54,282 nt of DNA, taken from Candidatus Omnitrophota bacterium. GTDB taxonomy: Bacteria > Omnitrophota > Gorgyraeia > Zapsychrales > Fredricksoniimonadaceae. The stretch spans positions 1-54,282 of the forward strand of contig JADFZK010000016.1 in the NCBI GenBank assembly GCA_015232565.1, read 5' to 3'. The notes under the pieces were generated by a model. That model did not search any database. It had not been told where the DNA came from and worked only from the letters and a program-made list of their open reading frames with translations. The translations under genes were made by a program, and so were the position numbers. Below are positions 13,559-47,603 of the stretch, piece by piece (position 1 is the first letter of the stretch; every line of letters begins with the position of its first letter).

Positions 13559-14224
13559 ATTTTCATCATCTTTTTACCCATTATTTTAGCGCTAATCTGT
13601 TTTTTCTCTCCCGTTGCAATTGCTGGTACAGAGGCTCTTTTAAGTGCCACGTCTACTGCTAAATCACACTCAGCTCTGGAAAAGCCAACACTAAAAGAAG
13701 TTGGTTTCTTAATGGGCTATGGCTCCACTAAAGTTACAGACAAAGACAGGTATGTTACAATTCCAACTTACCTGCGTTTGGGAATTGATTGCGATAAGTT
13801 CGGGCTGGGATTCTCTGACTGGATCGAACGAGGGGCGAGAGACTTTTTTCATAAAGATTTCCGCCCGCGAGGCACGACGGAGTTTTTGATAGAGCCTTTT
13901 GTTAGTTATGTCCCGAGCCCGAACCAGAACATGGAAGGTGGATTTATTATTGCTTTTAAATATGAGTGGCCGTTGACAGAAAAGTTTCATCCTTATATTT
14001 GGAATGGCGGCGGGGTAATGTATATTACGCAACATCTACGTGAAGAGGCATTACAAGTTAACTTTACTCCGCAGATTGGGGGCGGGTTTCATTATTTTAT
14101 AGAAAAGAACAAGGCTCTGAATTTTGAATACCGGTATCGGCATTTTTCTAATGCAAATTTGAAGCTTCCTAATGATGGCGTTAATCAGGGGTTTATATCT
14201 CTTGGAATTTCATGGTTTTATTGA
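13559..14224 (+). CDS. PagL-like outer-membrane acyloxyacyl hydrolase with an apparent ATT start
   Basis: The mature part (EVGFLMGYGSTKV to the end ISLGISWFY) is an eight-strand-barrel-like protein ending in an aromatic residue. YRYRHFSNANL contains the PagL pair His195 and Ser197. PagL removes the 3-O-acyl chain of lipid A. The Glu expected 12 residues after the Ser is Asn209 here, so activity is uncertain. An uninterrupted signal peptide (FIIFLPIILALICFFSPVA) lies upstream, but its only start candidates behind AAGGAG (13546-13551) are ATT 13559 or ATC 13556. The first ATG, 13712, would remove the whole signal. Either a rare ATT start is used or one base is wrong. It opens the cluster transcript. 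Confidence 0.7.
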   Translation: MFIIFLPIILALICFFSPVAIAGTEALLSATSTAKSHSALEKPTLKEVGFLMGYGSTKVTDKDRYVTIPTYLRLGIDCDKFGLGFSDWIERGARDFFHKDFRPRGTTEFLIEPFVSYVPSPNQNMEGGFIIAFKYEWPLTEKFHPYIWNGGGVMYITQHLREEALQVNFTPQIGGGFHYFIEKNKALNFEYRYRHFSNANLKLPNDGVNQGFISLGISWFY

Positions 14225-14231
14225 GGTTAAT

Positions 14232-14966
14232 ATGACGAAATCAAACAATAAATTAGCATTGGTTATTGGCGGAAGCCGGGGAATCGGTCGAGCAATTGTT
14301 TTACGGTTAGCACAAGAAGGGTTTGATATATGGCTGACTTGTCGTTCTAATATCGAAGCCGCCAAAGAAGTTCAAGCTGAAGTTGAGAAGATAGGTAGAG
14401 AGTGTGCGATTTCTGTCTTTGACATAGCTGATCATAAAGCGGTCAAGGCGGCCTTGGAGAAACAGGTTGATGAACGTGTTCCAGATGCTGTTGTTTACAA
14501 CGCGGGCATCACCAAAGACAACCTCTTCGTTTTTATGACGAAAGATGAGTGGGACTCGGTTCTGCATACAAATTTGGATGGATTTTATCATGTTATGCAT
14601 ACCGTAATTTTTTCTATGTTGCGTGAGAAAAGGGGCAGGATTGTGATTGTTTCATCGACCTCTGGAGAGATCGGTCAAGCTGGACAAGTTAATTATTCAG
14701 CGTCTAAGGCCGGGTTGATTGGCGCGGCTAAGGCCCTCGCTCGTGAAGTGGCCCGTAAAAACATATGGGTTAATGTTGTTGCTCCTGGAGTTATCGATAC
14801 AGAAATGACCAAGGACCTTCCGAAGGACAAGATTCTTCCCATGATTCCTATGCAGCGTTATGGAACCGCTGATGAAGTTGCCTCTATTGTGGCTTTTCTA
14901 TGCGCCGAGAAACATATGTATATTCATGGCCAGGTTATTGGCGTTAACGGTGGACTCGCCATCTAA
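14232..14966 (+). CDS. 3-oxoacyl-ACP reductase (FabG/ApeQ-like ketoreductase)
   Basis: The 244-residue SDR protein reduces 3-oxoacyl-ACP to 3-hydroxyacyl-ACP with NADPH, the first processing step after each condensation. GGSRGIGRA is the cofactor loop, NAGI the fold motif, and Ser142, Tyr155 and Lys159 (VNYSASK) the catalytic set. The ending HGQVIGVNGGLAI is typical of FabG. I start at ATG 14232, five bases after GAGG, because an earlier start adds residues not found in the family. It overlaps the next gene by one base. Its place beside ketosynthases shows it is dedicated to the cluster rather than to housekeeping fatty acid synthesis. Confidence 0.9.
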   Translation: MTKSNNKLALVIGGSRGIGRAIVLRLAQEGFDIWLTCRSNIEAAKEVQAEVEKIGRECAISVFDIADHKAVKAALEKQVDERVPDAVVYNAGITKDNLFVFMTKDEWDSVLHTNLDGFYHVMHTVIFSMLREKRGRIVIVSSTSGEIGQAGQVNYSASKAGLIGAAKALAREVARKNIWVNVVAPGVIDTEMTKDLPKDKILPMIPMQRYGTADEVASIVAFLCAEKHMYIHGQVIGVNGGLAI

Positions 14967-16468
14967 TGAAACAGTACAATTCAATTATTGTCGGTGGTGG
15001 TGTTAGCGGCATGACGTTAGCTTTGCTTCTGGCCGCCAATGGACGCAAAGTGCTTCTTCTTGAAAAAGCACCGACCATTGGTGGCGGGTTGTGTCGTTTC
15101 TACAAAAAGGGGATTCCTTTTGATACGGGGTTTCATTTTACAGGAGGTTTTGTTGGAACGACTACTTTGCACGATATGCTGACCGTCCTCGGCATTCGGG
15201 ATAGTATTCGTCCAATCTTTTTGGATAGGGAGAACTCTAACCAGTTTCTCTTTGAAGAAGAAGGCCGGATGCTTTCTGTTCCTGCCGGAAGAGAGCAGTG
15301 CTGTGCGAGGTTTGAAAGTTATTTTCCCGCAGAACGCGCTGCAGTTAAACGCTATTTTCAAATGGTCGACCGCGTCATTGAAGCGACGCCGTCCTTTGAC
15401 TTGCGCAAGATTTCTATATCTCCAGACCCTCTGGATGAAGACCATGTTACCCTTCAGCATGTTTTGGATAGTCTGACTCAGGACAAAACGCTTCAGGCGG
15501 CGTTGTCCGTTTATTGTATGTGTTATGGCACTAGGCCTAATGAGGTTTCTTTTGCGAATCATGCTCGTGTTTCTGTAGGGTTTTACGATGCTATTGCCCG
15601 GGTTGAAGAGGGGGGAGATGCTTTTATCCGAGCTTTTCGCAGTGCGTTTAAGCAACATTCGATTGAGGTTCGTTGCAATACAACGATCAAGGAATGCCTG
15701 GATATTCGCGATCGGAAGGTTGGTCGGCTCCTTCTGTCCAGTGGAGAAGAAGTAACGGCGGATGAATGCATTTTTACGATCCATCCGCATGAGATCTTAA
15801 AGATTCTGCCTCGGCAGCATTTTTCGAAGGCTTTTTGGGACAGGGTCGCGTCGTTTGGTTCCTCCAACGGATTCTTTTCGGTCTTTGGTGCGATTGATAG
15901 TGTTGAGCTTGCGGCTGATGCTGCCCCGTCTTTAATGTCGGTTGTGCCTCGTGCGGACGTTAATCTACTGATGGATCCTGAGTATGTTGGTCCCCAGGCG
16001 TTAGCAATCTTTCAGAGCCAGGAACTCGTTAGGGATAAGGCCGTTCGCGTTTTGACTGCATTTGAGCCTTCCTATTTTCAACAGGTTGCCTTTTGGAAAG
16101 ATTCTAGGGTCGGCTGTCGACCTGAGGCTTATTCAGTATATAAAGAGCTGCATGCTTCGAGTATTTGTGATCGAATTCGTCAAGTTCTGCCGGAGTATAA
16201 GGATTCATTTAAAATGTATGATGCTGCCAGCATGCTGACGTTCCGTGATTATTTATCAACGCCTGATGGTAGTGCGTATGGAATTCGCCAGAAAGTCGGG
16301 CAATTCAATCTTTTCGGAAAGCTGCCCTTGCGGAATTTTTATGCTGCCGGGCAAAGCGCTGTTTTACCGGGGATCCTGGGGGCGATGCTGTCGTCTTTTG
16401 TTGTTGCGCGATCCATACTTGACCAACAACAATATAACACCTATGTGAGCAAGCGTTTATGCAATTGA
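14966..16468 (+). CDS. CrtI-like FAD-dependent oxidoreductase/desaturase
   Basis: The 500-residue protein opens with an FAD dinucleotide loop, IIVGGGVSGMTLALLLA, followed by LEKAPTIGGGLCRF and DTGFHFTGG, features of the phytoene desaturase/carotenoid isomerase group. It ends with NFYAAGQSAVLPGILGAML, the C-terminal FAD contact. Members desaturate, saturate or isomerise conjugated chains. In this cluster it could set double-bond geometry or degree of unsaturation of the acyl polyene. It overlaps the reductase before it and the ketosynthase after it, so it belongs to the same operon. There is no hydrophobic anchor. Confidence 0.8.
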   Translation: MKQYNSIIVGGGVSGMTLALLLAANGRKVLLLEKAPTIGGGLCRFYKKGIPFDTGFHFTGGFVGTTTLHDMLTVLGIRDSIRPIFLDRENSNQFLFEEEGRMLSVPAGREQCCARFESYFPAERAAVKRYFQMVDRVIEATPSFDLRKISISPDPLDEDHVTLQHVLDSLTQDKTLQAALSVYCMCYGTRPNEVSFANHARVSVGFYDAIARVEEGGDAFIRAFRSAFKQHSIEVRCNTTIKECLDIRDRKVGRLLLSSGEEVTADECIFTIHPHEILKILPRQHFSKAFWDRVASFGSSNGFFSVFGAIDSVELAADAAPSLMSVVPRADVNLLMDPEYVGPQALAIFQSQELVRDKAVRVLTAFEPSYFQQVAFWKDSRVGCRPEAYSVYKELHASSICDRIRQVLPEYKDSFKMYDAASMLTFRDYLSTPDGSAYGIRQKVGQFNLFGKLPLRNFYAAGQSAVLPGILGAMLSSFVVARSILDQQQYNTYVSKRLCN

Positions 16469-17688
16469 AGCGTGCAGTAATAACCGGATTTGGAACAGTT
16501 TCTCCCTTAGGAAGTGATGTTATTGAGATGCAGGCCGGTTTTGAAGCATCTCGCAGTGCGGTCCAGCTCATGGAGGGCTGGGATGCGTATAAGGGTTTGC
16601 GTAGTCTTATCGCGGCGCCGGCCATTTCGCTCGACGCAAGCTCCATTCCGCGCCAGAGCCGCCGCTCTATGGGGCCGATGAGCATTTACTCCGTTCAGGC
16701 CGCCCAGCAAGCGTTGGCAGGTAGCGCACTCCCAGTCGGATTGCTTACATCGGGTCGGGTAGGTTGTGTGATAGGGTCAACAATGGGAGGAACTAGGAGC
16801 ATTAACGAGATTTACGAGAACATGGCTTCGCATAAAGACCTTTCACAGCTGACCTCAATGAAATTTTTTCAGTGCATGTCCCATACTGCGGCATTGAATG
16901 TTTCACAACATTTCGGGATCAACGGGGTTGTTATGGCCACCTCTGCGGCATGCGCTTCTGGTCTGCAGGCAATAGGGTCTGCTTATGACCTTATTCGTTT
17001 GGGGACACAGGATGCGGTGCTTTGCGGCGGAGCGGAAGAGCTTTTTCCGACAGTGACTGGAGCCTTTGATATTTTGTTTGCGACGTCGACAAAATACAAT
17101 GATCGCCCCCAACTGACGCCGCGTCCATTTGACGCGGATCGAGACGGTTTGGTTTGCGGTGAGGGCGCCGGGATTCTGGTGGTTGAGGAATATGAGCATG
17201 CGCGAGCCAGGGGTGCCAGAATTTATGCCGAGATCATCGGTTATCATACGTGTGCCAGTGGACAGCACGTTAGCCATTCTAGTAAGGAGTCGTTAGCCGC
17301 CTCCATGAGAGGTGCGTTGGCTTCGGCTAGGATTGACGCAGGTGCCGTAGATTATATTAATGCTCACGCAACGGCAACATTGCAGGGTGACAAGGAAGAG
17401 GCTGAGGCTATTCGGGATATTTTTGGCGACAAGGTGCCGGTATCGAGTCTAAAGGGATATATGGGGCATACGCTGGGGGCCTCTGGCGCCATTGAATTGG
17501 TGGCGTCGCTGTTGATGATGCAAGCCGGCCGTATCTATCCGACGAAAAACCTAGAGCGCGTGGCTGATGATTGTCAGGGGATTTGGCATGTGCAAAAGCA
17601 ACTTGAGCGCCAGGTTAATGTCATTATCAAGAATGCTTTTGCGCTAGGCGGGTTGACCGCTTCTTTGGTCGTAAAGAGTCCGGATTAA
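16459..17688 (+). CDS. Beta-ketoacyl-ACP synthase (first, ApeR/FabF-like)
   Basis: The 409-residue protein is a complete ketosynthase: Cys165 in SAACASG is the acyl-accepting nucleophile, and His303 (NAHATAT) with His337 (MGHTLGASG) completes the Cys-His-His set. It condenses malonyl-ACP onto a growing chain. Length and motifs match FabF and the aryl-polyene ketosynthases. It overlaps the previous gene by ten bases. An acyl carrier protein follows directly, the usual partner. It lacks an adjacent chain-length-factor partner, unlike the other two ketosynthases of the cluster. Confidence 0.9.
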   Translation: MQLKRAVITGFGTVSPLGSDVIEMQAGFEASRSAVQLMEGWDAYKGLRSLIAAPAISLDASSIPRQSRRSMGPMSIYSVQAAQQALAGSALPVGLLTSGRVGCVIGSTMGGTRSINEIYENMASHKDLSQLTSMKFFQCMSHTAALNVSQHFGINGVVMATSAACASGLQAIGSAYDLIRLGTQDAVLCGGAEELFPTVTGAFDILFATSTKYNDRPQLTPRPFDADRDGLVCGEGAGILVVEEYEHARARGARIYAEIIGYHTCASGQHVSHSSKESLAASMRGALASARIDAGAVDYINAHATATLQGDKEEAEAIRDIFGDKVPVSSLKGYMGHTLGASGAIELVASLLMMQAGRIYPTKNLERVADDCQGIWHVQKQLERQVNVIIKNAFALGGLTASLVVKSPD

Positions 17689-17717: not shown

Positions 17718-17993
17718 ATGACCAAGGAAGAAGTTATTAGCAAGACTAATGAGGTGTTTGAGAAGAGTTTTGAGATTGCGCCGGAGCGGCTTAAACCTGA
17801 GGCACATATTTTTAATGATTTAGGACTGGATAGCCTGGACATCGTTGATCTTGTAGTGGGTCTGCAGCAAAAATTTGCTGTGACGATCCGCGACGATGAG
17901 CGGGTGCGTAATATTCGGACGCTGGGTGATGTTTACGATTTTATATATTTGCTGGGACAGGAAGGCAGTGTCGGGGGCTCGCCATCTAAATGA
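17718..17993 (+). CDS. Acyl carrier protein (first)
   Basis: The 91-residue ACP has the 4'-phosphopantetheine attachment site at Ser39 in LGLDSLDIVDL. Helix I precedes it and LQQKFAVTI forms the following helix-turn. It carries the growing chain as a thioester. GGAGG eight bases upstream supports ATG 17718. The last ten residues (GSVGGSPSK) are a flexible tail. It overlaps the acyltransferase behind it by four bases. No phosphopantetheinyl transferase gene is in the window, so the housekeeping one must load it. Confidence 0.9.
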   Translation: MTKEEVISKTNEVFEKSFEIAPERLKPEAHIFNDLGLDSLDIVDLVVGLQQKFAVTIRDDERVRNIRTLGDVYDFIYLLGQEGSVGGSPSK

Positions 17994-18739
17994 CGACAGT
18001 TAAGAAGATCATTCTTAATGCTGTTTTTTATATCTTATTCGTCCCAGCAACAATTATGGCTGTATTGTTTTTTACGCCCTGGGTTGTTTTTGGACGGTTG
18101 TTTAGTTATCGGGAGGCAATGCGGCGGTTGCGCCTAACTATTAGATGGTATGGCCGAATGATGATCTGGGGATTGCCACAGCCATTCCTCAAGGTTCGTT
18201 ATACGGGTAAAAGCGGCGAGTCGTCAATACCCAGGCCTTGCATTGTTATCTGTAACCATCGTTCTTCATCCGACCCGTTTTTGATGGCGTGTTTTTCTTT
18301 TGAGGCGGTCCAAATCGTCAATATTTGGCCGTTTAAGATCCCTTTGCTAGGGGTTGTAGCGAAGTTGGCCGGTTATTTAAGTGTTAATGAGATGTCTTTC
18401 GAAGAGTTCAGCCGGCGGTGTGGACAGCTTTTAGATGAAGGAGTTTCTATTATTGCGTTCCCTGAAGGGACGCGCTCCGGTGTTAATGCGATGGGACAAT
18501 TTCGAGGTGCTATGTTTCGGATCGCATTGGAGAGAAAGTTGCCGATTGTACCGTTATGTATTTCTGGTAATGAGGACAAGCCGATCCGGGGCTCTTTTTG
18601 TATGAATCCGGGGACCGTGTTTCTCCACAGGTTGCCGACAGTGATGTATGAGCAGTTTAAGGACATGACCCCATTTAAGTTGAAGAATTATGTGCGTGAT
18701 ATTATTGAGAATGAGACCAAATTAATGGATGCTCGATGA
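17990..18739 (+). CDS. PlsC-type 1-acyl-glycerol-phosphate acyltransferase-like protein (ApeD-like)
   Basis: The 249-residue protein has an N-terminal membrane segment (FYILFVPATIMAVLFFTPWVV) and the lysophospholipid acyltransferase motifs: NHRSSSDP (His90 and Asp95, HX4D) and FPEGTRSG (from Phe157). It transfers acyl groups at the cytoplasmic face of the inner membrane. Aryl-polyene clusters encode such an enzyme beside the ACPs, where it probably links the polyene acyl chain to a lipid headgroup. The first four bases overlap the ACP gene, and its end overlaps the ligase gene. Confidence 0.85.
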   Translation: MTTVKKIILNAVFYILFVPATIMAVLFFTPWVVFGRLFSYREAMRRLRLTIRWYGRMMIWGLPQPFLKVRYTGKSGESSIPRPCIVICNHRSSSDPFLMACFSFEAVQIVNIWPFKIPLLGVVAKLAGYLSVNEMSFEEFSRRCGQLLDEGVSIIAFPEGTRSGVNAMGQFRGAMFRIALERKLPIVPLCISGNEDKPIRGSFCMNPGTVFLHRLPTVMYEQFKDMTPFKLKNYVRDIIENETKLMDAR

Positions 18740-20028
18740 TGAGACCATTTAAGGAATATCCCAAAAGTTCTTTTGTCGAACCCAGTCGGATGCGTCGGAT
18801 GCAAACGCAATGGCTTCGCCATCACCTCGTGTATTGCCAGGCCGCGTCTCCTTTCTATCGTAAGTTTTTTAAGAAACATGGAGTCGTTCCTCAGGAGGTT
18901 ACTTTAGATAATTTCGTAAATATCCCGCTGACGGATAAGCGTTCTTTGGAGCGCTCCAATATGGATTTTATTGCGGTTCCCCAAGAGCGTATCTCGGATA
19001 TCGTTCTTTCCAGCGGGACGACCGGTGATCCTACGCAGATAGTTTACACCCAGCGAGATCTTGATCGTCTAGCTTATAACGAACAGCAATCAATGGTCTC
19101 CTGTGGCATGACTGCGGCCGATCGGGTGTTGTTAACTTGCACGATCGATCGGTGTTTTGTAGCTGGACTGGCTTATTATTTGGGTGCAAAGAAGATTGGT
19201 GCGGCGTGTATTCGTAACGGATTAAATAGTCTCGAAAGTCATGCGGGGATCATTAAGTTGATGACGCCATCTGTTGTTGTCGGGGTGCCTTCATTCCTGC
19301 GCAAGCTTGGGGCGTATGTAAAGCATAAGAAGATCCCTGTTGGCAGTGTTAAGAAGTTGGTTTGTATTGGTGAGCCACTGCGCGATAAGGACATGAAGGC
19401 ATTGATCGGGACGCAGGATCTTGAGGCTTTGTGGGGGGCCAAGGCATTTTCTACGTACTCTTCCTCTGAAATGGTGACTTCTTTTTGCGAATGCGAGTGC
19501 CAGAACGGTGGGCATTTGCATCCAGAGCTAGCCGTAGCCGAGATTGTTGATGAGCGGGGTCGTCGTGTGAGTGCGGGAGTTGTTGGCGAGCTGGTGGTGA
19601 CGCCGCTGGGCATTGAAGGTATGCCTTTGGTGCGGTTTCGGACCGGAGATATTACTTTTATGTTTGAGGAGTCCTGTCCGTGCGGTCGTCTGAGCCCGCG
19701 GTTGGGGCCGATTCTCGGTAGAATGAAGCAGATGCTTAAGATCAAGGGGACTACAGTTTATCCTTTGGCCGTTTTTTCGGCATTGGATGAGCTGCGTGAA
19801 GTCAGTGATTATTTCATAACAGTGTTTTCTTCGGATGCCTTGTCTGATCGTCTGATGGTGACGGTTTCCTTGCGACAGTCTTGTTCTGTTGCTCGTATAA
19901 GCGAAGCATTGACTGCGCGCTTAAGGGTTGCGCCGGAGGTTGTGGTGGCCTCTGAGGAAGATGTGAGGCGGGTGGTTTATAACCCGTCATTACGCAAACC
20001 AGTAAGATTCTTTGATAGGAGAATATAA
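18736..20028 (+). CDS. Adenylate-forming ligase, phenylacetate-CoA ligase-like
   Basis: The 430-residue protein belongs to the PaaK branch of AMP-forming ligases. LSSGTTGDPT (near residue 91) is the phosphate-binding loop, TYSSSEM the adenine-binding A5 region, and VRFRTGDI the aspartate that contacts the ribose. A CXC cluster (CECECQ) and SCPCGR resemble zinc-binding features of PaaK relatives. It should activate an aryl or short acyl acid and load it on an ACP or CoA. In aryl-polyene clusters such an enzyme primes the aromatic starter. ATG 18736 and 18739 are both possible starts; the stop of the acyltransferase is within them. Confidence 0.8.
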   Translation: MMRPFKEYPKSSFVEPSRMRRMQTQWLRHHLVYCQAASPFYRKFFKKHGVVPQEVTLDNFVNIPLTDKRSLERSNMDFIAVPQERISDIVLSSGTTGDPTQIVYTQRDLDRLAYNEQQSMVSCGMTAADRVLLTCTIDRCFVAGLAYYLGAKKIGAACIRNGLNSLESHAGIIKLMTPSVVVGVPSFLRKLGAYVKHKKIPVGSVKKLVCIGEPLRDKDMKALIGTQDLEALWGAKAFSTYSSSEMVTSFCECECQNGGHLHPELAVAEIVDERGRRVSAGVVGELVVTPLGIEGMPLVRFRTGDITFMFEESCPCGRLSPRLGPILGRMKQMLKIKGTTVYPLAVFSALDELREVSDYFITVFSSDALSDRLMVTVSLRQSCSVARISEALTARLRVAPEVVVASEEDVRRVVYNPSLRKPVRFFDRRI

Positions 20029-20030
20029 CG

Positions 20031-21521
20031 ATGGGCGGATGTGGGAACATGCCATTTCGTTTTGAATTTACACCGCAAGACATTTCACAGGCTGTTAGTC
20101 AAGCACAGCTATTGTCAATCGAGATAGAGTTTAGTCTGAAGTGCAATTTGCGTTGTCCTTATTGTTACATTTCAACAGCTCCTGATCCCAAGAACGAGCT
20201 TACTTCGGCCGAGATCCGCGATGTTATTTTACAAGCGCGTGATTTAGGTGCACGTAAGATCATTATTCTTGGTGGTGAACCGTTGATCTATCCGCGCATT
20301 ATGGAAAAGATTGAGTTTATAAGGGAGCAGGGACTACAAGTCGAGTTATTTACAAATGGTGCGCATTTAACCCAGGCACGGGCACGCCGGCTGTTCGATC
20401 TTGGCGTTAATGTTGTGTTGAAGATGAATTCGTTTAAGGATGATATTCAGGATAAATTGGTTGGGGTGCCGGGGACGTCTAAGAAGATGAGGGCGGCATT
20501 AGCGCATCTTCGGGAGGCGGGCTATCCGCGTGGCGATGGTTTTTTGGCTGTGAGTACGGTTATTTGCCAAGACAATCTTCCGGAACTCACCGCTCTGTGG
20601 ATCTGGCTTCGGGACCAAGGTATCTTGCCATATTTTGAAATATTAACGCCCCAGGGGGGTGCTGCAAAGAATGATGGGTTAAATGTTTCGACCGGGGAAC
20701 TTGAGAAGTTTTTTCATGAGATAAGCGAGATCGATCGCACTCGCTATAACCAGGTATGGGAGCCGCAACCGCCTTTGGTTGGTGGAAAGTGCTTGCGGCA
20801 TCAGTTTTCCTGCCTGATCAATTCGCAGGGCTTTGTTATGCCGTGTGTGGGATTGAATGTTCCCATCGGCAATATTCGTGAAAAGAAACTTAAGGATATT
20901 TTATCCGAAAGTGAGATTGTGCAGGATTTGCGTCAGTTTCATCACAAGATCAAGGGCCCGTGCGGAAAATGTGAGAAGGCGGGTGATTGTTACGGCTGTC
21001 GTGGCGCGGCATACCAGTTGACAGGTGATTATTTGGCGTCAGATCCTTTGTGTTGGAACAATGAGGCGCACGCTCATGAGATCGTTAAACTACCAGTCGA
21101 AGTGAATGGTTTTGTCCTTCATGATGACGCCATGCTCTTGGTGGATAAATTAATCAAGATTGGAGAACGAACTGCTGAGGTTGAGACGACCGTTAGGGCT
21201 GATATGCCGTTTGTGAGTGGGGATGGATTTCTGGATGAGGCGGCTTATCTTGAGATCATCGCACAAGCTGCGGCGGCTATGGGTGGGTTTAGGCAATACG
21301 GGACATCGAGCAAGAAGCCGATGGGTTTTTTGCTAGGGACAAAGCAGTTAGAGGTTTTTGGGCGAGCTCGTGTTGGTGATGTGCTGTCAGTTAGTGTTTC
21401 TAAGTACGCGCAATTCGGTGATTTTGGTATGGTTAAAGGGTCGGTTACTTGTGGGTCTCATTTGCTGGCACAAGGAGAAATAAAGACTTGGCATAATAAA
21501 GCACCACAGGAGTCCATATGA
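20031..21521 (+). CDS. Radical-SAM/SPASM enzyme fused to an ApeP-like hotdog dehydratase domain
   Basis: One uninterrupted 496-residue frame holds two enzymes. Residues ~25-350 are a radical-SAM domain with CNLRCPYC (Cys38, 42, 45), ILGGEPLIYP, and a SPASM region with further cysteines (GGKCLRH, MPCVGL, GPCGKCEKAGDCYGC) for auxiliary iron-sulfur clusters. From about residue 355 the protein reads VNGFVLHDDAMLLVDKLI and continues to FLLGTKQLEVFGRARVGD, the pattern of the ApeP/FabZ-like hotdog proteins of aryl-polyene clusters. The second part should dehydrate or bind 3-hydroxyacyl-ACP, and the first perform a radical modification. I know of no described fusion of this type. Start ATG 20031 lies two bases after the ligase. 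Confidence 0.8.
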   Translation: MGGCGNMPFRFEFTPQDISQAVSQAQLLSIEIEFSLKCNLRCPYCYISTAPDPKNELTSAEIRDVILQARDLGARKIIILGGEPLIYPRIMEKIEFIREQGLQVELFTNGAHLTQARARRLFDLGVNVVLKMNSFKDDIQDKLVGVPGTSKKMRAALAHLREAGYPRGDGFLAVSTVICQDNLPELTALWIWLRDQGILPYFEILTPQGGAAKNDGLNVSTGELEKFFHEISEIDRTRYNQVWEPQPPLVGGKCLRHQFSCLINSQGFVMPCVGLNVPIGNIREKKLKDILSESEIVQDLRQFHHKIKGPCGKCEKAGDCYGCRGAAYQLTGDYLASDPLCWNNEAHAHEIVKLPVEVNGFVLHDDAMLLVDKLIKIGERTAEVETTVRADMPFVSGDGFLDEAAYLEIIAQAAAAMGGFRQYGTSSKKPMGFLLGTKQLEVFGRARVGDVLSVSVSKYAQFGDFGMVKGSVTCGSHLLAQGEIKTWHNKAPQESI

Positions 21522-22174
21522 CGGTAAGGACATTAACAATGATGCTACTGGTGTTTTTAGGGTGTGCGCTTTCCTGTAGGGTCTCCAGTGCAGATGATGT
21601 CGCTGACACATTAGCAAACATAACACAGCAGATGGCGGATCTAAAGTCGGTGCAGGTAACTTTTGTTCAGGAAAAGAGACTGGCGATGTTCACCGCTCCT
21701 ATCGTGATGAGAGGGACCTTATCCTGGGAGCGACCGGATGCTTTTGCCTGGCATGTCGATTCACCTGTTCAATACGCCATGATCATGCGTAAGGGCGTAG
21801 CTCTTCAGTGGGATGGTGAACACAACACGACACAGGAATACAAGATTGGCGGGAATCCAGTGATGCGAGTGGCCTCTCAGCAGTTGCAGCGCTGGTTCAG
21901 CGGTAATTACCAGCAGTTGGCGGTGGATTACACCATATCGATTGGTAGTCGTAATCCTCTGATCTTAACATGCGTGCCGCATCCGGAGAGTCCTGAAGCC
22001 GGGTTCATTAAGCGTGTGTCGATTCAGTTCCGGGATGATCTGCGCTATATTAGTAGGATCACGATTGAAGAGGTTTCGGGTGATCAGACTGATATTGCTT
22101 TTGATAATGTTCGTCTTAACGAAATCATTCCGATAGATGCTTGGCGTGCTGAAGGATCAAAACCGCATGGTTGA
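21518..22174 (+). CDS. LolA-like periplasmic carrier
   Basis: The 218-residue protein has a signal peptide (TMMLLVFLGCALSCRVSSA) and the LolA-type fold: LKSVQVTFVQEKRL, GTLSWERPDAFAWHV and IRVS-like strands later (RISRITIEEVSGD area). Housekeeping LolA ferries lipoproteins; the versions in aryl-polyene clusters are thought to move the lipid product across the periplasm. The start overlaps the previous stop (ATGA) and its end overlaps the exporter start. A cysteine at the signal cleavage site (SC) could make it a lipoprotein, but the surrounding residues are not a good lipobox. Confidence 0.8.
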   Translation: MTVRTLTMMLLVFLGCALSCRVSSADDVADTLANITQQMADLKSVQVTFVQEKRLAMFTAPIVMRGTLSWERPDAFAWHVDSPVQYAMIMRKGVALQWDGEHNTTQEYKIGGNPVMRVASQQLQRWFSGNYQQLAVDYTISIGSRNPLILTCVPHPESPEAGFIKRVSIQFRDDLRYISRITIEEVSGDQTDIAFDNVRLNEIIPIDAWRAEGSKPHG

Positions 22175-24539
22175 GCAAATGTTTAAGGCTATTTTTAGTT
22201 TTGTTGAGCGCCGTCAGCGGGTTGTGCTGGCGATTTTGTGCGTTCTCATGGCTATCTTTGCCATTGCAGCTACCAGGATTCATTATGACAATGATCTTTC
22301 CGGGATGCTGCCCTCAGACCCTGCTATTCGCCGAGACCTAGACCTGATCCGCCAGAGCGTTTTCGCTGGCAAAGTGGTGTTGTCTTTTGAGCTAGCAGGA
22401 GACAATGCGTCATTGGATGATCTGGTGCAATATGTGGACAAGGTTGCTGCGCGTTTGCCTGGACCGATGGTGTCAGGGGTTATTAAAGGACCTAAACTGG
22501 CGCCGGATGACTTGGTGACGTTCGTCCAGTTTGCTCCGCGGCTAATTGGGGAGAAACGCCTAGCGGACTTTGCTAAGAAATCATCTTCGGGAGTTATTGA
22601 TGAAAGCCTTCGGTCGTTACGTTCACGCTTAATCTCGTTTCAGGGAATGTTCATCGGCGGCATTGTTCGGGTGGATCCTCTGGGTTTGTTCTCGCCGGAA
22701 TTATCGTATTTGCAGCAGTTAGCGGCGACATTCGGGCGCAATGTGACGTTCTATAACGGCCATTTTGCAACGCAGGATGGTAAGCATCTAATGCTGATTC
22801 TGGAAACGCCGGTGCCGATCACAGATGGGACCCGCTCTGCAGCATTGTTAGATTACCTACAGAAATGCCTTGGCGATCATCCGACCTTCGCGAAGGTTGA
22901 CATTATTTCCGGTCATGCTCATACGGCAGCGAATGAGACACAGATTAAAAGCGATATTTCCAGGACCGTTACCGTTGCAACGCTGGCGTATTTGCTTGTT
23001 CTAATATGTTTTTTCCGGGATATGCGGGCGGCTATCTTTTTCATGATCCCGGCTTGTTCGGTGCTGGCTGCGCTGGTTTTTTCAGGGTTGGTTTTTGGTA
23101 GTGTTTCAGCTTTTGTCGCGGCGATGGCCTCGGTTATTATTGGCGTTTCGGATGATTACGGGATTTTGGTGTATACGGCCATCCGCACCGCAGGCCGTCG
23201 TGATGTAGCTACGTTTATGGCGCGGCCTATTATTTTGGCAGCATTCTTTACGACCGGAATCTTTGCGGTGTTCTTCTTTTCCGGTGTGTCGGGGTATCAC
23301 CAGTTGGCATTCTTAACAATTGTTAGCATTTGGTTGTGTGTGGGGTTTGTCTTATTGATCTTCCCCCATTTGGTGACAACATCACCCATGAAATTGCCGC
23401 GGGCTGTCGGGGAAGGAAAGACGGATCCCAAAAAAGATAAATTCATGATTATGATTTGGCTAATCTTTGTGGTGATCATGTGTGTTGGAGCAAGCCGTAT
23501 TCAATTCAATAGTGATATATCTGCATTAGATGGAGTGGACCCTAAGGTTCGCGCTGGGGAGGATAGGTTCGAGGAGGTGTGGCTGGGTCGTCAGAAACAA
23601 AGCATTTTTGTGGTAACTGCCCCAACTCTTGACGCTGCGCTCACGATCAATCAGGCCGTGTTCAATGATTCTGGCGCTTTCGTCAAAGAGATTGCCAGTA
23701 TTGCTCCGTTCATGCAGCCAGCGCATGAAGAAAAGAAAAACATTGCAGCTTGGCACACGTTTTGGCTAACTGGTCAGGGGTCATCGCTTCGGGACTCAAT
23801 TCAGGCTGGGGCCGCCCATAATGGATATTCTGCTGAGGCTTTTGCCTCGTTTATGGCGTTGACACGCCGGGACTCTTTCCCGAAAATCGATGATGTTCCT
23901 TTCTTAAAACAAATGTCTGAGCGTTTCGTGTCCTATCAAAAGGACTCAGTAAGGGTGTTGACCTTTTTCCCGGAAGAGTCTGCGCTAACGGAACATTTTG
24001 ATCGTTTGACGCTTAAATATCCGGGAACGTTTGTTTTCTCCCGTACTCATTTTACCCAGAGGTTTAGTGCTAGCATTAATCAAGAGGCAGCGCGTTTGGC
24101 GGGGTGTGCGGTTGTGTTCTTGGGATTGGTGGCGGTATTCTTTTTGCGTCGCGTGCGTTTGATTCTACTTGTATTGTCAGCGGCAGTAACATCGATTTTG
24201 GCCGTTATGGCCGTTTACGGTTTCTGGGGGAGACCGTTAACGGCACCTGCGTTGGTTGCCTTGATGATCGCGGTTGGCCTGGCGATCGATTATGGCGTTT
24301 TCTTGTTGTATGCGCTGCAGCGCAAAATCGATACGGGTACGGCCAAGGCAGTCAGCATTTCTGCTGCGACTACTTTAACAGGCGCTTGTTCTCTACTGGC
24401 GGCGCATCACCCGGCACTTTTTTCGATTGGGCTGGCCTTGAGTACGGGTTTGCTAGTTGGGTGGCTTTGCGCGCAAATGATCATTCCTGCATTGTATAGA
24501 CGTTACTGTTCGGATATCCATGAGGCCGGTCATGAATAA
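22167..24539 (+). CDS. MMPL/RND-type inner-membrane exporter
   Basis: The ~790-residue protein has the RND repeat: one N-terminal membrane helix, a periplasmic loop, about five helices (near 265-405), a second single helix, loop and five helices (near 640-780). The segments LAYLLVLICFFRDMRAAIFFMIP and the later ALMIAVGLAIDYGVFLLYAL, with the intramembrane Asp of proton-driven pumps, are typical of MMPL proteins. It probably extracts the acyl product from the inner membrane and hands it to the LolA-like carrier. I start at ATG 22167, ten bases after GAAGGA, overlapping the LolA stop. Confidence 0.85.
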   Translation: MVEQMFKAIFSFVERRQRVVLAILCVLMAIFAIAATRIHYDNDLSGMLPSDPAIRRDLDLIRQSVFAGKVVLSFELAGDNASLDDLVQYVDKVAARLPGPMVSGVIKGPKLAPDDLVTFVQFAPRLIGEKRLADFAKKSSSGVIDESLRSLRSRLISFQGMFIGGIVRVDPLGLFSPELSYLQQLAATFGRNVTFYNGHFATQDGKHLMLILETPVPITDGTRSAALLDYLQKCLGDHPTFAKVDIISGHAHTAANETQIKSDISRTVTVATLAYLLVLICFFRDMRAAIFFMIPACSVLAALVFSGLVFGSVSAFVAAMASVIIGVSDDYGILVYTAIRTAGRRDVATFMARPIILAAFFTTGIFAVFFFSGVSGYHQLAFLTIVSIWLCVGFVLLIFPHLVTTSPMKLPRAVGEGKTDPKKDKFMIMIWLIFVVIMCVGASRIQFNSDISALDGVDPKVRAGEDRFEEVWLGRQKQSIFVVTAPTLDAALTINQAVFNDSGAFVKEIASIAPFMQPAHEEKKNIAAWHTFWLTGQGSSLRDSIQAGAAHNGYSAEAFASFMALTRRDSFPKIDDVPFLKQMSERFVSYQKDSVRVLTFFPEESALTEHFDRLTLKYPGTFVFSRTHFTQRFSASINQEAARLAGCAVVFLGLVAVFFLRRVRLILLVLSAAVTSILAVMAVYGFWGRPLTAPALVALMIAVGLAIDYGVFLLYALQRKIDTGTAKAVSISAATTLTGACSLLAAHHPALFSIGLALSTGLLVGWLCAQMIIPALYRRYCSDIHEAGHE

Positions 24540-25197
24540 AAAGATTTTGACTGGCGTCTTAAGCTTGATAGTTCTGTCTGCTGGATGTGCGCATCTCCCG
24601 ATCAAGGATGTCTCTCCATTGGATGTGCGTAGTGTGATGGATGATTTTCAGGGACGTCTTGGTAATAAATATGAAATTCTTGATTCAGTTGAGTTTAAGA
24701 TCGGATTGTTCTCGTTTTCAAGCCTAGGGGTTACGTCGATTGACTTGATTAACGATCATCTGGCGGTGGCGGGGGTGACGCCGGTAGGTATTACGCTGTT
24801 TAGTGTTGTCGCCGACAAGGGCAAGGTTACGAAATCGTTCGTTATGCCTCAGTTTGCCAAGCGTGGGGATGTTGCCAAAGCGGTGTCAGGTAATATTAGG
24901 GATATTTATTTTGATTTGACGCCGAAAAGTTTTATGTCGGGGTTTTCCCAGGGAGATAAGCTGTCAGTAAAGACATTTGTTGAGAACGGCATTCATTTTG
25001 AATATATCTTTTCGTTAAAAGACCAGGTTCTTTGCGAGAAGCGTCTTTATAAGAATAGCCGGATTTTTTGGAGGATATATTATTCAAACTGGTCTGCTGA
25101 TTTATCCGGTCATATTCATCCGGGGAATATCCGCTTTGTACACCGAGCGTATCGGTATCAATTAATTATTAATGCTAAAGAGGTGCGGCCTTTTTAA
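24532..25197 (+). CDS. DUF3261-type lipoprotein
   Basis: ATG 24532 gives MNKKILTGVLSLIVLSAGC, a clean lipobox with the lipidated Cys at residue 19. The ~221-residue protein continues with beta strands (FKIGLFSFSSLGVTSID) and ends FVHRAYRYQLII. DUF3261 lipoproteins accompany LolA and MMPL genes in aryl-polyene clusters and are presumed LolB-like acceptors in the outer membrane. The order LolA, MMPL, lipoprotein is exactly kept here. It overlaps the exporter by eight bases. The function is inferred from context. Confidence 0.7.
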   Translation: MNKKILTGVLSLIVLSAGCAHLPIKDVSPLDVRSVMDDFQGRLGNKYEILDSVEFKIGLFSFSSLGVTSIDLINDHLAVAGVTPVGITLFSVVADKGKVTKSFVMPQFAKRGDVAKAVSGNIRDIYFDLTPKSFMSGFSQGDKLSVKTFVENGIHFEYIFSLKDQVLCEKRLYKNSRIFWRIYYSNWSADLSGHIHPGNIRFVHRAYRYQLIINAKEVRPF

Positions 25198-25212: not shown

Positions 25213-25587
25213 ATGTCTATTCTTTCGCGTGAGATTAAAAGTTATTTTCGTCAAGTCTTGTGTCAGGAGGACGGAAAGATAACTGCGCAGGTCTCTTTTC
25301 CGGAGAATTTTACCGGATTTAAAGGGCATTTTCCGAGTAACCCTGTTGTCCCCGGCGTTTGTCTTGTTACATGTATTCTTGTGTTATTAGAACTCGCCTT
25401 GAAACGCAAGGTCAGGTTAAAGACAATCGTTTTGGTTAAGTTCCTGTCAATCGTTCGCAGCGAGCAGGAGGTTGTGCTTGAACTGCGTCGTGGAGATCAA
25501 GATGCGGCTTGTGAGCAAGTAAAAGTATTGTTTCGTTCGGCAGACAAGAAAGTTGCCGAGATGACCATTGAGGTGACATATGAATGA
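25213..25587 (+). CDS. Hotdog 3-hydroxyacyl-ACP dehydratase (ApeI/FabZ-like)
   Basis: The 124-residue single hotdog has FTGFKGHFPSNPVVPGVCLV. His39 in GHFPxxPVVPGV is the catalytic histidine of FabA/FabZ enzymes. It removes water from 3-hydroxyacyl-ACP to give the trans-2 double bonds that, left unreduced, build a polyene. No enoyl reductase gene is seen in the cluster, consistent with retained double bonds. It overlaps the thioesterase by eight bases. It is shorter than FabZ by ~20 residues but similar to the ApeI proteins. Confidence 0.85.
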   Translation: MSILSREIKSYFRQVLCQEDGKITAQVSFPENFTGFKGHFPSNPVVPGVCLVTCILVLLELALKRKVRLKTIVLVKFLSIVRSEQEVVLELRRGDQDAACEQVKVLFRSADKKVAEMTIEVTYE

Positions 25588-26086
25588 TTCAGTCTCTAAA
25601 CTAACGCGTCGCAGTAAAGGAAACTATTTCTTTCGTGCTCCAGATGCCCCGTTACCGCTGGTCACATCTATCCGTTTACGAGCCGCTTTTGGTGCCGTCG
25701 ATGCCATGGCGGTAGTGTGGCATGGGCGCTACTCTCAATATTGTGAAGAGGCATATGCCGCATTAGCACGAAGTTGTGGTATTTCGTATCATGACTTCTT
25801 TAAGGCCCAGTTGCGCGCACCAGTTGTACAGGTTCATTTGGATTACTTCGTTTCATTGTTGTTGGAAGAAGAGTTTATTGTGACTGCCCGCCTGATCTGG
25901 TGTGAAGGTGCGCGTATGAATGTTGAGTACGAGATTACCAAGCTTGACGGGGTTGTTGCGGCGACGGGATACACCGTCCATATGTTTACGGATTCGGCTA
26001 GTTTGCCGTTGTTGACAGTGCCGCCGCTCATTGAGACATTGCGTCAGCGTTGGCAACGGGGAGAGTTCGCGTGTCTGGTAAAGTAG
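25580..26086 (+). CDS. 4-hydroxybenzoyl-CoA-type thioesterase (ApeK-like)
   Basis: The 168-residue protein contains IRLRAAFGAVDAMAVVWHGRYSQY, where the Asp in VDAM and the WHGRY segment form the 4HBT active site. The later strand RMNVEYEI and an IELR-type C-terminus fit the fold. It should cleave acyl-ACP or acyl-CoA thioesters, either releasing product or editing the chain. Its overlap with the dehydratase before and the ketosynthase behind shows co-expression. The exact substrate cannot be read from sequence. Confidence 0.8.
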   Translation: MNDSVSKLTRRSKGNYFFRAPDAPLPLVTSIRLRAAFGAVDAMAVVWHGRYSQYCEEAYAALARSCGISYHDFFKAQLRAPVVQVHLDYFVSLLLEEEFIVTARLIWCEGARMNVEYEITKLDGVVAATGYTVHMFTDSASLPLLTVPPLIETLRQRWQRGEFACLVK

Positions 26087-27207
26087 CAATCACCGCTTTT
26101 AACATGATCACGGCCTTCGGCCATGGCGTTGATATATCCTGGCAATCGCTATTGGATAATCATACTGCTATCGGTGCTCCAAAACGTATAAGTAAGGCTC
26201 GTTTTGAAGTAGCTCCTGTTGCGGAGAGCCAATTGATTGATCAACGAAGTGCGGACACCTCTGTTTGGCAGCTATGTCGCATGCTTTTAGATGATCCTTC
26301 GCTCAATAACCTTCCGCCAGGAACAGAATTGTTTCTCTCGACAACTGTAGGCGAGATTGAATTACTCGAGCGAGCTGTAGATAGTAAGTCGGATGCTTCT
26401 AGTAGCTGTCTTTCTAATCTATGTCTTAAGGTTGAGGCGCTCTTGGGTCTTCCGCAGGGGCATGGGACGGTAGTTTCTGCAGCCTGCGCATCGGGAAGTT
26501 CTGCTATAGCGCTTGCCGCACAACGTATTAGGCTTGGTTTAGCAAAGAGTGCGTTGATCGTAGCATGTGATGGCGTGAGTGAATTTGTTTTGGCAGGGTT
26601 CAATTCATTAATGGCTTTGGATAAACAAGGGGCACGTCCTTTTGACAGATCCCGTCAGGGATTGTCTTTGGGAGATGGTGCAGCTTTTATGGTCTTGATG
26701 GGCTCGGATTATGCTCAAGAAAACAATATTCCTATTCTGGCGGAAGTGGCGGGTTGGGGAATGAGCGATGACGCCAATCATATTACGGGTCCTTCACGGG
26801 ACGGTTCAGGTCTAGCAAGTGCGATTAAAGTGGCGCTAGAGACGTCAGGAGTGTCCGCTAAGGACATTTCATTCATTTCTGCTCATGGAACAGGGACTCT
26901 TTATAATGACGCGATGGAGATGCAGTCTTTCAAGAAGATCTTTCAAGAACCTGTGGCTTTATATGGAATAAAAGGTGCAATTGGGCACACCCTGGGAGCA
27001 GCGGGTTTAATTGAGGTTGGGATTGCCGTTCATGCTTTGCGGGAATCTTTAATTCCTCCGACAGTCGGGTTATCTGAGCCCGATCCCGAAGCTTTTGGGT
27101 GGGTGTCGTCTCAGTCGCGTGGAGTAGTGGGAGAGTATGCTTTATGTGTAAATGCGGGGTTCGGCGGGGTTAACGCAGCTGTTTGTTTGAAGAAGTCTAT
27201 TAAATAG
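26071..27207 (+). CDS. Beta-ketoacyl-ACP synthase (second, ApeO-like)
   Basis: The complete ketosynthase of about 378 residues starts at GTG 26071, seven bases after GGGGAG, overlapping the thioesterase by 16 bases. Cys139 (SAACASGSS), His272 (SAHGTGT) and His306 (GHTLGAAG) form the active site. The glycine-rich end GFGGVNAAV is typical. It is followed at once by a truncated ketosynthase-like protein with no nucleophile, so the two probably form a ketosynthase/chain-length-factor heterodimer as described for aryl polyenes. Confidence 0.9.
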   Translation: MSGKVAITAFNMITAFGHGVDISWQSLLDNHTAIGAPKRISKARFEVAPVAESQLIDQRSADTSVWQLCRMLLDDPSLNNLPPGTELFLSTTVGEIELLERAVDSKSDASSSCLSNLCLKVEALLGLPQGHGTVVSAACASGSSAIALAAQRIRLGLAKSALIVACDGVSEFVLAGFNSLMALDKQGARPFDRSRQGLSLGDGAAFMVLMGSDYAQENNIPILAEVAGWGMSDDANHITGPSRDGSGLASAIKVALETSGVSAKDISFISAHGTGTLYNDAMEMQSFKKIFQEPVALYGIKGAIGHTLGAAGLIEVGIAVHALRESLIPPTVGLSEPDPEAFGWVSSQSRGVVGEYALCVNAGFGGVNAAVCLKKSIK

Positions 27208-27220
27208 AATTGGCATTGGA

Positions 27221-27907
27221 ATGATGAAAACGGATTTTAATTCAGTATCGATAACCGGGATGTCTTTTATTTTGAAGGACAAGTGTTGCGCTGTCGGTCG
27301 TCGAATGCTCTTTTCTTGTTCAGATGCGAAGGACGCATGCCGTATTCTGGAAACTCAAGGAATCTTCAAAGGGCAACCAAAGAATTGGGGGCGCTTTGAT
27401 CAAGTGTCGTTGACAACATATGCTGCGGCTCTTTGGGCTTGTTTTGATGCTGGGTTACCCTTTGCTCAAGAGAAACGACGGGTTGGGATTGTTGGATTTA
27501 ATCAGCAAGGGGCTTTAGATTCTAACCTGGCATTTTTTACTGATTATGTTAATGCTGGTCGCAATAGTGCGCGTAGTAATTTGTTTGTATATACTCTACC
27601 GACGACGCCAGTTGCTGAGGTTGCGTTGTTTTGTGGATTTACCGGGCCAGTATGGTATATGTATCAACCATTGGGTGGTGCAGGACAGCTGATGGAAGAG
27701 GCAGCATGTGTCTTGAAAGATGATGTTGATGCGATGCTGGTTATATGCGCTGACTCTCAAGAAGCACTCTGTTTTGTTATGCAAAATGGTAAAGGTAAAG
27801 AGCTTTTTCCATTCTCGTTAGTACGGGAACACTTAATTGGCAAGACGTCTGTCCGCGAGATTCTTCAAGCATTGGATATGTTATCTGAAGGCGCTGGTGC
27901 TATGTGA
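27221..27907 (+). CDS. Truncated ketosynthase-like protein (chain-length-factor-like), first
   Basis: The 228-residue protein corresponds to the N-terminal half of a ketosynthase. YTLPTTPVAEVALFCGFTGPV matches the strand before the active site, but where the cysteine should be the sequence reads YQPLGGAGQL, so it cannot form an acyl-enzyme. DAMLVICADS matches the following strand. The second half with the two histidines is absent. Such ApeC-like proteins are partners that shape the chain-length pocket. It starts 13 bases after the active ketosynthase, ending in an ATGTGA overlap with the next gene. Confidence 0.65.
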   Translation: MMKTDFNSVSITGMSFILKDKCCAVGRRMLFSCSDAKDACRILETQGIFKGQPKNWGRFDQVSLTTYAAALWACFDAGLPFAQEKRRVGIVGFNQQGALDSNLAFFTDYVNAGRNSARSNLFVYTLPTTPVAEVALFCGFTGPVWYMYQPLGGAGQLMEEAACVLKDDVDAMLVICADSQEALCFVMQNGKGKELFPFSLVREHLIGKTSVREILQALDMLSEGAGAM

Positions 27908-29166
27908 AGATGAAATTAATTTACCCTAAATGGCCCAAGCTTCCGCATCAGCCGGCATTCAATCTGCCTCCCCATGGCCCGGTGTGTTTTGCTGCGGCAC
28001 TCCCCAAGAGCGTCGGAGTAGATTTTTGCGATGAGAATGTTGAGCCTTTGGTGATCGATCGAGGTGCCGACCTGGTGGTGATTTCCTGTATGTTGACCTG
28101 CCAGATCGTTCGCGGGTGGGAAATTGCTGATCAGTATCGGGCATTGGGTCAGAAGGTTATCTTTGGAGGCATCGCCGTGATGCTGCATCCAGAAGAAACC
28201 TTGCCGCATGCTGATGCCGTCTTTCTTGGGGAGGCCGAGGGGCATATTCACAAGGTATTGGAAGATTTCGAGCGTGGTTCTCTAAAGAAGATATATGATT
28301 TTATGAATGTGTATCCTGATACTGCGCTTATCGGGACAGCTCGACGGGATATCTTAAAGCACGAACTTTATAATTTTCGCGGCGTGCAAATGGTGGATCT
28401 GGTGCATGCTTCAAGGGGGTGCCGGTTTAACTGCTTTCCATGCTGCACTCCATATTTAGGAGGGCGGAATTTTCGTCCGCGCCCAATTGATAAGGTTGTT
28501 GCCGAGCTGGAGAGCATCCCGAATAATCGTCTTTTTTTGGTCGATAATTCTTTGGCCCAGGATGATCAATGGGAGAAGGATCTGTTTCGGGCTATGATCC
28601 CGCTTAAGAAGAAGTGGGTTTCGCATCCGATCAAGGATGATGATGAGATCCTCGATCTTGCGGCTAAGGCGGGGTGTTGGTATGTGTACCAGGCGATCTT
28701 TGATACCTCAGACTATATTAGAAAGCGTATCAAGCGCCTTAAGGAGCGAGGGATCGGTGTTGAAGGAACGATAATCCTGGGGACTGACGATCATGATGAG
28801 GACTCTATCAAGCGCCTGGTTGATTTCCTTCTGGAGGTTGACCTGGATCTTGCCGAATTTACTATTTTGACGCCATTCCCGCACTCGCCTATTCGTACCA
28901 AGCTGGAGCAGGAGGGTCGGATTCTACACAGTGACTGGATCAGGTATACAGCGGGTGAGGTGGTTTTTAAACCAGCGAAGATGACGCCCGATTCTCTTTC
29001 GAAAATGTATGAATATGCCTGGAACACATTTTATGCAGATTGCAGCAAGGAAGTGATGATGGCCAAGCTTTATTTAAATGTGATCCACCGGGAGAAGGCC
29101 GATGGCACCTATCATCAGGTTCAATTGCGAAATACCCGCGGCTGGGTGGCGCCTACTCCAAAATGA
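27904..29166 (+). CDS. B12-binding-type radical-SAM enzyme (first of a pair)
   Basis: The 420-residue protein has an N-terminal Rossmann-like region (residues 1-~130) with ADLVVISCMLTCQIVRGWEI and VIFGGIAVMLHPEETL, the layout of cobalamin-binding domains in radical-SAM enzymes. CRFNCFPC (Cys173, 177, 180) binds the cluster, followed by a second cysteine and PYLGGRNFRPRP. The family methylates, oxidises or rearranges unactivated carbons. GTG 27904 overlaps the stop before it. A partner of the same class follows directly, an unusual pairing within a polyene-type cluster. The substrate is not known. Confidence 0.75.
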   Translation: MKMKLIYPKWPKLPHQPAFNLPPHGPVCFAAALPKSVGVDFCDENVEPLVIDRGADLVVISCMLTCQIVRGWEIADQYRALGQKVIFGGIAVMLHPEETLPHADAVFLGEAEGHIHKVLEDFERGSLKKIYDFMNVYPDTALIGTARRDILKHELYNFRGVQMVDLVHASRGCRFNCFPCCTPYLGGRNFRPRPIDKVVAELESIPNNRLFLVDNSLAQDDQWEKDLFRAMIPLKKKWVSHPIKDDDEILDLAAKAGCWYVYQAIFDTSDYIRKRIKRLKERGIGVEGTIILGTDDHDEDSIKRLVDFLLEVDLDLAEFTILTPFPHSPIRTKLEQEGRILHSDWIRYTAGEVVFKPAKMTPDSLSKMYEYAWNTFYADCSKEVMMAKLYLNVIHREKADGTYHQVQLRNTRGWVAPTPK

Positions 29167-32622: not shown

Positions 32623-32635
32623 TAACGGAGGTTGT

Positions 32636-32914
32636 ATGGAACAAAAAGAACAGGAGTTGGCAGAGATTCGTAAGAAGTTAAAAGGGTTCATTGTTACGGG
32701 TCTTTCCCTGGAAGGGGTCAAGCCGGAAGAGATCAAGGATGACACGGTTCTTTTCGGAGAGGGTTTAGGTCTTGACTCTTTGGATGCTGTGGAGATCGTC
32801 GTCCTGTTGCAGCGCAATTGGGGTGTGGATGTAAAAGATATGAATGATGGGCGTAAGGCGTTCTACTCCATTGATACCTTGGCGAATTATATTTACGATC
32901 ATTTGAAGAAATAA
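32636..32914 (+). CDS. Acyl carrier protein (second)
   Basis: ATG 32636 sits five bases after GGAGG. The 92-residue ACP has Ser48 in LGLDSLDAVEIVVLLQ as the phosphopantetheine site. The N-terminal helix (KEQELAEIRKKLKGFIVTGL) is longer than in housekeeping ACPs. Together with the ketosynthase right behind it and the truncated partner after that, it forms a second condensation unit. In aryl-polyene systems two ACPs with separate roles are usual; here there are three. Confidence 0.9.
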   Translation: MEQKEQELAEIRKKLKGFIVTGLSLEGVKPEEIKDDTVLFGEGLGLDSLDAVEIVVLLQRNWGVDVKDMNDGRKAFYSIDTLANYIYDHLKK

Positions 32915-42182: not shown

Positions 42183-42218
42183 ACGTTGTCTGCCCAGCCC
42201 TTACCGTCAGATCGGCAG

Positions 42219-47595: not shown

Positions 47596-47603
47596 GGACG
47601 GGG

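Follow-up and report, generated by a model that had tools for sequence, protein, structure and literature searches.

The fusion gene and its domains

The window, by which we mean the whole analysed stretch of 54,282 nucleotides from an Omnitrophota genome, carries on its forward strand a gene (20031-21521) for a radical-SAM/SPASM-hotdog fusion protein. A ribosome-binding-like AGGAGA lies just 5' of the gene, and its 3' end overlaps the next gene by ATGA. A sequence-only reading of this DNA had described a single open frame across the domains, and we found one uninterrupted ORF of 496 amino acids.

Pfam places a Radical_SAM domain at residues 32-171 (83.7 bits against a cut-off of 29.5, E 2e-23) and a SPASM domain (PF13186) at residues 254-315 (35.8 bits against 21.5, E 1e-8). 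The CX3CX2C motif C38/C42/C45 (20142-20165, CNLRCPYC), with the predicted ligands of the radical-SAM 4Fe-4S cluster, is invariant in 11 fused proteins and 15 unfused relatives. The SPASM region (20790-21053), recognised by PF13186, conservation and fold, holds eight cysteines (C254, C261, C272, C311, C314, C320, C323 and C341), all invariant in 11 of 11 fused proteins. Their number and order are presumably those needed for two auxiliary Fe-S clusters, as in anSME. In an AlphaFold2 model of the fusion as monomer, built from 26 aligned sequences (mean pLDDT 84, pTM 0.77), the fold of this half matched SkfB, PqqE, SuiB and anSME with Foldseek; an earlier AlphaFold model from 11 sequences had reached a pLDDT of 62, so the deeper alignment improved the model. 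From its sequence, the N-terminal half is predicted to be a complete three-cluster radical-SAM/SPASM enzyme. None of the known SPASM equivalogs of NCBIfam (AhbD, NirJ, PqqE, mycofactocin) scored above cut-off, the best being AhbD with 141.5 bits against 500.

The two halves are joined by a 12-residue junction (residues 342-353, 21054-21089), delimited by the ends of unfused relatives and the predicted structure, and mostly one helix in the model. Because unfused relatives stop 1-21 residues past the last cysteine, the hotdog seems to have been added at the natural C-terminus of the radical-SAM protein via about 12 residues.

The hotdog domain and its proposed ApeI partner

The C-terminal domain (21090-21506) is a hotdog of the ApeP type. 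A plain Pfam search nearly misses it, because its score against the ApeP-like family PF22817 is about 14.7-14.8 bits, below the cut-off of 27; 8 of the 11 fused members match this family weakly, with a best E of 8e-4. A phmmer search of the PDB gave a single match (E 4e-9), chain 6qsr_B, which is the ApeP of Xenorhabdus doucetiae. The same chain was the top match of a profile of the 11 orthologues (E 6e-14), ahead of FabZ-type chains (E 5e-5), and Foldseek with the AlphaFold2 model gave a TM of 0.77 over 143 columns at 2.7 A. The title of the 6QSR record is dehydratase heterocomplex ApeI:P, and the closest solved relative of the hotdog, by sequence and fold, is the ApeP of this complex. The matches of Pfam, PDB sequence and fold agree, and so the domain calls of the sequence-only reading (radical SAM, SPASM cysteines and C-terminal ApeP-type hotdog) were right. 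That reading missed two points: the hotdog is only half a dehydratase, and the cluster around it is not plainly of the aryl polyene type.

A chance match or a plain FabZ identity of the hotdog was ruled out by the agreement with 6qsr_B; in addition, the FabZ homologues of the phylum lie about 180 bits below the fused hotdogs. With the hotdog profile, fused proteins scored at least 222 bits and the next best hit among the 384 sampled Omnitrophota genomes 43 bits. No free-standing hotdog of the fused type was found in these genomes, and the same search found no Rosetta-stone split with a separate ApeP beside an unfused radical-SAM gene. The closest unfused clusters have FabZ instead of a split ApeP. 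Within the cluster and genome of the window's fusion we found no further ApeP-type gene.

The active-site residues of the hotdog are incomplete. E408 (21252-21254) stands at the position of the FabZ catalytic Glu, and Phe394 replaces the His of FabZ and FabA; each is invariant in 11 of 11 fused proteins. The ApeP of X. doucetiae shows the same pattern, Glu without His. Downstream in the cluster lies an ApeI-like hotdog (25213-25587), recognised by weak FabA/ApeI-like Pfam matches, by alignment across the clusters and by 6qsr_A. It has the opposite pattern: the GHFP His is present and the catalytic acid is absent. Across the fused clusters GHF..PGV is kept in ApeI, with T, L, Q or M among the residues at the acid position, whereas the FabZ of the three closest unfused clusters is complete (GHFP and IESMAQ), so that His and acid are both present. 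In FabA/FabZ dimers the active-site His and acid are supplied by opposite subunits. The fusion and ApeI would therefore make exactly one working site, and the fused hotdog alone, judged from these residues, would be only half a dehydratase that needs ApeI. We strongly infer that E408 and the GHFP His of ApeI form a composite dehydratase making polyene double bonds on ACP.

The ApeI:ApeP heterocomplex of X. doucetiae is similar in its hotdog fold, in the Glu without His of its ApeP half and in the GHFP His of its ApeI half (6qsr_A), and it also belongs to an aryl-polyene-type cluster of KS/CLF, KR, ACP, LolA, MMPL and DUF3261 genes. It differs in that its ApeP is a separate protein without radical-SAM domain, and in that its ApeI seems to keep an acidic residue (IDWVM there), which the ApeI of the fused clusters lacks.

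Gene cluster and distribution of the fusion

All 11 fusions lie in one conserved cluster, as far as contig ends allow, and the surroundings of every fused copy are of the type-II FAS/PKS kind, including ACPs, ketosynthases and, on contigs that are long enough, ApeI. In the window all genes of this cluster are on the forward strand. The conserved order begins with a FabG-like ketoreductase in the ApeQ position (14172-14966, NCBIfam), a CrtD/phytoene-desaturase-like FAD oxidoreductase (14966-16468; Pfam, NCBIfam), ketosynthase KS1 (16459-17688; Pfam, NCBIfam), acyl carrier protein 1 (17718-17993, Pfam) and a lysophospholipid acyltransferase-like protein in the ApeD position (17990-18739, Pfam). 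Directly upstream of the fusion is a PaaK/FlxY-like AMP-forming ligase (18736-20028), assigned by synteny and by an NCBIfam FlxY score of 447 bits, under the cut-off of 520. The fusion is followed by the genes for a LolA-like carrier in the ApeL position (21518-22174, Pfam), an MMPL/RND-type exporter in the ApeM position (22137-24539, just below the Pfam cut-off), a DUF3261 LolB-like protein in the ApeN position (24520-25197, Pfam), ApeI and a 4HBT thioesterase in the ApeK position (25580-26086, family matches). A gene for a PagL-like lipid A deacylase/outer-membrane barrel was observed at 13712-14224, and several fused clusters have a homologue of it immediately before FabG.

After the thioesterase the order continues with ketosynthase KS2 (26050-27207, family matches) and a short chain-length-factor-like KS (27221-27907), which has no NCBIfam match and was assigned by synteny. 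Its position and size suggest that it pairs with KS2; a half-size ApeC has been described (PMC8358021). Then come B12-binding/radical-SAM protein 1 (27904-29166, family matches) and protein 2 (29163-30521), which matches TIGR04072 rSAM_ladder_B12 with 602.8 bits against a cut-off of 360, a glycosyltransferase in the ApeJ position (30528-31715, family match), an HtrB-like acyltransferase (31705-32622) and acyl carrier protein 2 (32603-32914), the last two assigned by inspection and synteny, with homologues of the ACP also matching ACP1. Ketosynthase KS3 (32924-34093, family matches) and a chain-length-factor-like truncated KS (34093-34896, family match) follow. Further on are a weak WS/DGAT-like protein (35459-36769; E 0.03, synteny), a FAD oxidoreductase (37420-38586, family matches) and an AMP-forming acyl ligase (38583-39992, family match) with a possible ApeH-like role. 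The second halves of the clusters in G196, G160 and G281 were included in this comparison.

The rest of the window contains other genes of note. The lipid cluster is followed, after a few kb, by a phosphonate pathway (46294-49732). Its genes encode, in this order, a PEP mutase-cytidylyltransferase fusion, a TPP enzyme like phosphonopyruvate decarboxylase and, with no Pfam match, a probable 2-aminoethylphosphonate transaminase. Three sodium:dicarboxylate symporter paralogues (42186-43478, 44943-46265 and 50608-51879; one by Pfam, the others by inspection) are interleaved with an amidohydrolase and with solute-binding proteins. At 4861-9036 a 1391-aa protein has a radical-SAM-like core near residues 916-1063, below the Pfam cut-off.

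Most cluster genes match the E. coli aryl-polyene gene table (PMC8253772), and the aryl-polyene set of KS/CLF, KR, DH pair, ACPs, acyltransferases, thioesterase and LolA/MMPL/DUF3261 is present. The aryl head of an aryl polyene is not established, because neither an aromatic ammonia-lyase (PF00221) nor a UbiC-type chorismate lyase (PF04345) was found in the 94% complete genome. On the other side, the cluster has the ladderane-type family TIGR04072 above cut-off, and its accessory genes (PaaK-like ligase, phytoene-desaturase-like protein, two B12-radical-SAM proteins) are like those of anammox ladderane candidates. A simple aryl-polyene cluster was rejected because no aryl starter source was found and because of the ladderane-type genes. 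By gene content, the cluster looks like a hybrid of the aryl polyene and ladderane pathways. The flexirubin cluster of Chitinophaga pinensis is similar in its FlxY-like ligase, KS series, LolA, exporter and acyltransferase; it differs in that no radical-SAM gene is mentioned for it and in having a tyrosine ammonia-lyase, an enzyme not found in the Omnitrophota genome.

The sequence-only reading had proposed a search for the same architecture across genomes. The full-length fusion occurs in 11 of 384 sampled Omnitrophota genomes from six families, the window's genome counted, for example in G003 of the same genus (90% identity) and in G036 of another family (51%). Between the window and G003, pN/pS was 0.06 for the radical-SAM half and 0.10 for the hotdog, with synonymous sites near saturation. 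It means that both halves are under purifying selection, and that the hotdog evolves faster than the radical-SAM half. The orthologous fusions in 11 genomes ruled out a frameshift or a chimeric assembly, and together with the selection on both halves they speak for an intact frame between the domains near 21080-21120. The fusion is real and conserved and not an assembly artefact. G003 carries the last ~60 codons of the fusion twice, at the end of one contig (C174) and the start of another (C63); these ends differ in their identity to the window and are probably strain variation at a contig break.

A tree built from the radical-SAM half puts all 11 fused proteins in a single clade (support 100/99) that contains none of the 16 unfused relatives, consistent with one fusion event. 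On plasmids we did not find the fusion: the matches listed were PqqE-type, TIGR04053-type or unnamed radical-SAM genes with at most 32% identity, none covering 80%, and the TIGR04072 partner protein had no plasmid match. TIGR04072 itself is above cut-off in 14 of the 384 genomes. Thirteen of these carry the radical-SAM homologue, fused in 10 and unfused in 3; the remaining one (G001) has TIGR04072 on a contig of only 5.7 kb. TIGR04072 was thus found in 10 of the 11 fused genomes, the exception being G141, where the cluster is cut by a contig end.

The closest unfused radical-SAM genes (G149, G372 and G330) are 39-42% identical and without hotdog. Their order is ligase, radical-SAM gene, two B12-radical-SAM genes, FabG, CrtD-like gene, ACP and complete FabZ. 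The pair of ligase and radical-SAM gene is thus kept in the fused clusters and in these three, and further such pairs occur in G199 (C74), G017, G260 and G277. Other radical-SAM genes close to the SPASM/PaaK-like ligase pairs were also observed in G199, G260, G277 and G017, in uncharacterised Omnitrophota clusters. Since relatives in other Omnitrophota are unfused, the fusion is not obligatory.

In gene order and annotation, and by one family model, these three unfused clusters resemble the ladderane candidates of Kuenenia, in which a ligase (kuste3344) is followed by radical-SAM proteins (3343 and 3342), FabG (3341), ACP (3340), FabZ (3339) and a desaturase (3336) (PMC4790861; PMC2649909). 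The candidate clusters of Kuenenia (kuste3335-3352), Desulfotalea and Geobacter share with the fused cluster a PaaK-like ligase, radical-SAM proteins (TIGR04072 family), FabG, ACP, a phytoene-desaturase-like protein and several KS/CLF. They list FabZ and mention no radical-SAM-dehydratase fusion, whereas the fused Omnitrophota cluster has the ApeI/ApeP system and aryl-polyene-type export genes. The antiSMASH 'ladderane' clusters of Omnitrophota MAGs (PMC9902471), compared by description, agree in phylum and broad cluster class, and the domain fusion is not described for them. Radical-SAM/SPASM enzymes, ApeI:P dehydratases and ladderane-type clusters in Omnitrophota (PMC9902471) are already known. 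A SPASM enzyme covalently joined to half a dehydratase was not found in open-licence literature, and this fusion is apparently undescribed.

Possible role of the fusion protein

Our preferred reading, to which we give about an even chance from the sequence evidence, is that the protein is the ApeP half of an ApeI:P-type 3-hydroxyacyl-ACP dehydratase with a radical-SAM/SPASM enzyme at its N-terminus, which acts on an ACP-bound polyene. The hotdog would pair with ApeI in one dehydratase site as above, and the fusion would make the radical site part of the assembly line. The radical-SAM half may carry out a 2-electron oxidation or C-C bond formation, the known SPASM chemistry of BtrN, PqqE and SuiB (PMC9012708). 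Its substrate may be the same polyene, or an intermediate just before or after dehydration, as the fusion and the cluster suggest. The chain would probably be altered further by the phytoene-desaturase-like protein and the two B12-radical-SAM proteins. Acyltransferases may then attach it to lipid, and LolA, MMPL and DUF3261 may move the product to the outer membrane. The sequence-only reading had placed the radical step on, or next to, an ACP-bound chain. The context gives this partial support, as the fused genes lie in type-II FAS/PKS clusters and their closest unfused relatives in similar ones.

The radical-SAM reaction does not need the fusion, because the homologue occurs without hotdog in other clusters. 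Peptides or small molecules are mostly the substrates of SPASM enzymes, and in the literature searched none turned up with an ACP-bound substrate. The most constant neighbour is the PaaK-like ligase, so the radical-SAM half could act on the free acid of the ligase and not on an ACP chain. Because the ligase and the radical-SAM gene remain neighbours where the hotdog is absent, the chief alternative is a radical-SAM half that prepares or alters a starter acid for the adjacent ligase; the hotdog would then have been attached simply to secure co-expression and stoichiometry. This ligase closely resembles FlxY, the 4-coumarate-CoA ligase of flexirubin synthesis, and an aryl starter would need another source in a genome where no ammonia-lyase or chorismate lyase was found. 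The aryl starter itself is not established, though, and this explanation does not account for the fusion of the hotdog in preference to all other genes, or for its persistence in every member found. We regard it as rather unlikely, at about half the weight of our preferred reading.

The missing catalytic His (F394) and the faster evolution of the hotdog would also fit a role in docking the substrate or ACP for the radical-SAM enzyme, in place of work as a dehydratase half. This we consider improbable: the Glu never varies, it is the very residue missing from the partner ApeI, neither cluster nor genome has another ApeP-type gene, and the ApeP of X. doucetiae has the same pattern within a solved dehydratase heterocomplex. 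Least probable of all, in our view, is that the SPASM enzyme and the two B12-radical-SAM proteins do a ladderane-like polycyclisation of the polyene of the cluster. The TIGR04072 equivalog and the gene order that the unfused relatives share with the kuste3349-3335 candidates point to it, but non-ladderane organisms such as Desulfotalea have a similar gene set (PMC2649909), ladderane-type clusters of non-anammox phyla are linked to no product (PMC9902471), and no new fatty acids appeared in E. coli carrying the ladderane candidates (PMC4790861).

An extension of our preferred reading is that the dehydratase passes the ACP-bound polyene directly to the radical-SAM site, where anaerobic C-C coupling or cyclisation would give a polycyclic or cross-linked polyene lipid of the outer membrane. 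We offer it as speculation, with odds as low as those of the docking domain. If true, a radical-SAM enzyme would be physically part of a type-II fatty-acid/polyketide line, and the ladderane field would gain a radical enzyme for ACP chains with a built-in handle.

The route by which anaerobic bacteria build polyene and ladderane-like lipids is still an unsolved problem, and the radical-SAM proteins encoded in such clusters are without a demonstrated substrate. One shared radical-SAM gene links the aryl polyene and ladderane-like clusters, fused in the one and free in the other. With the natural fusion, one such enzyme is tied to a defined reaction, dehydration on ACP, and this link can be tested concretely.
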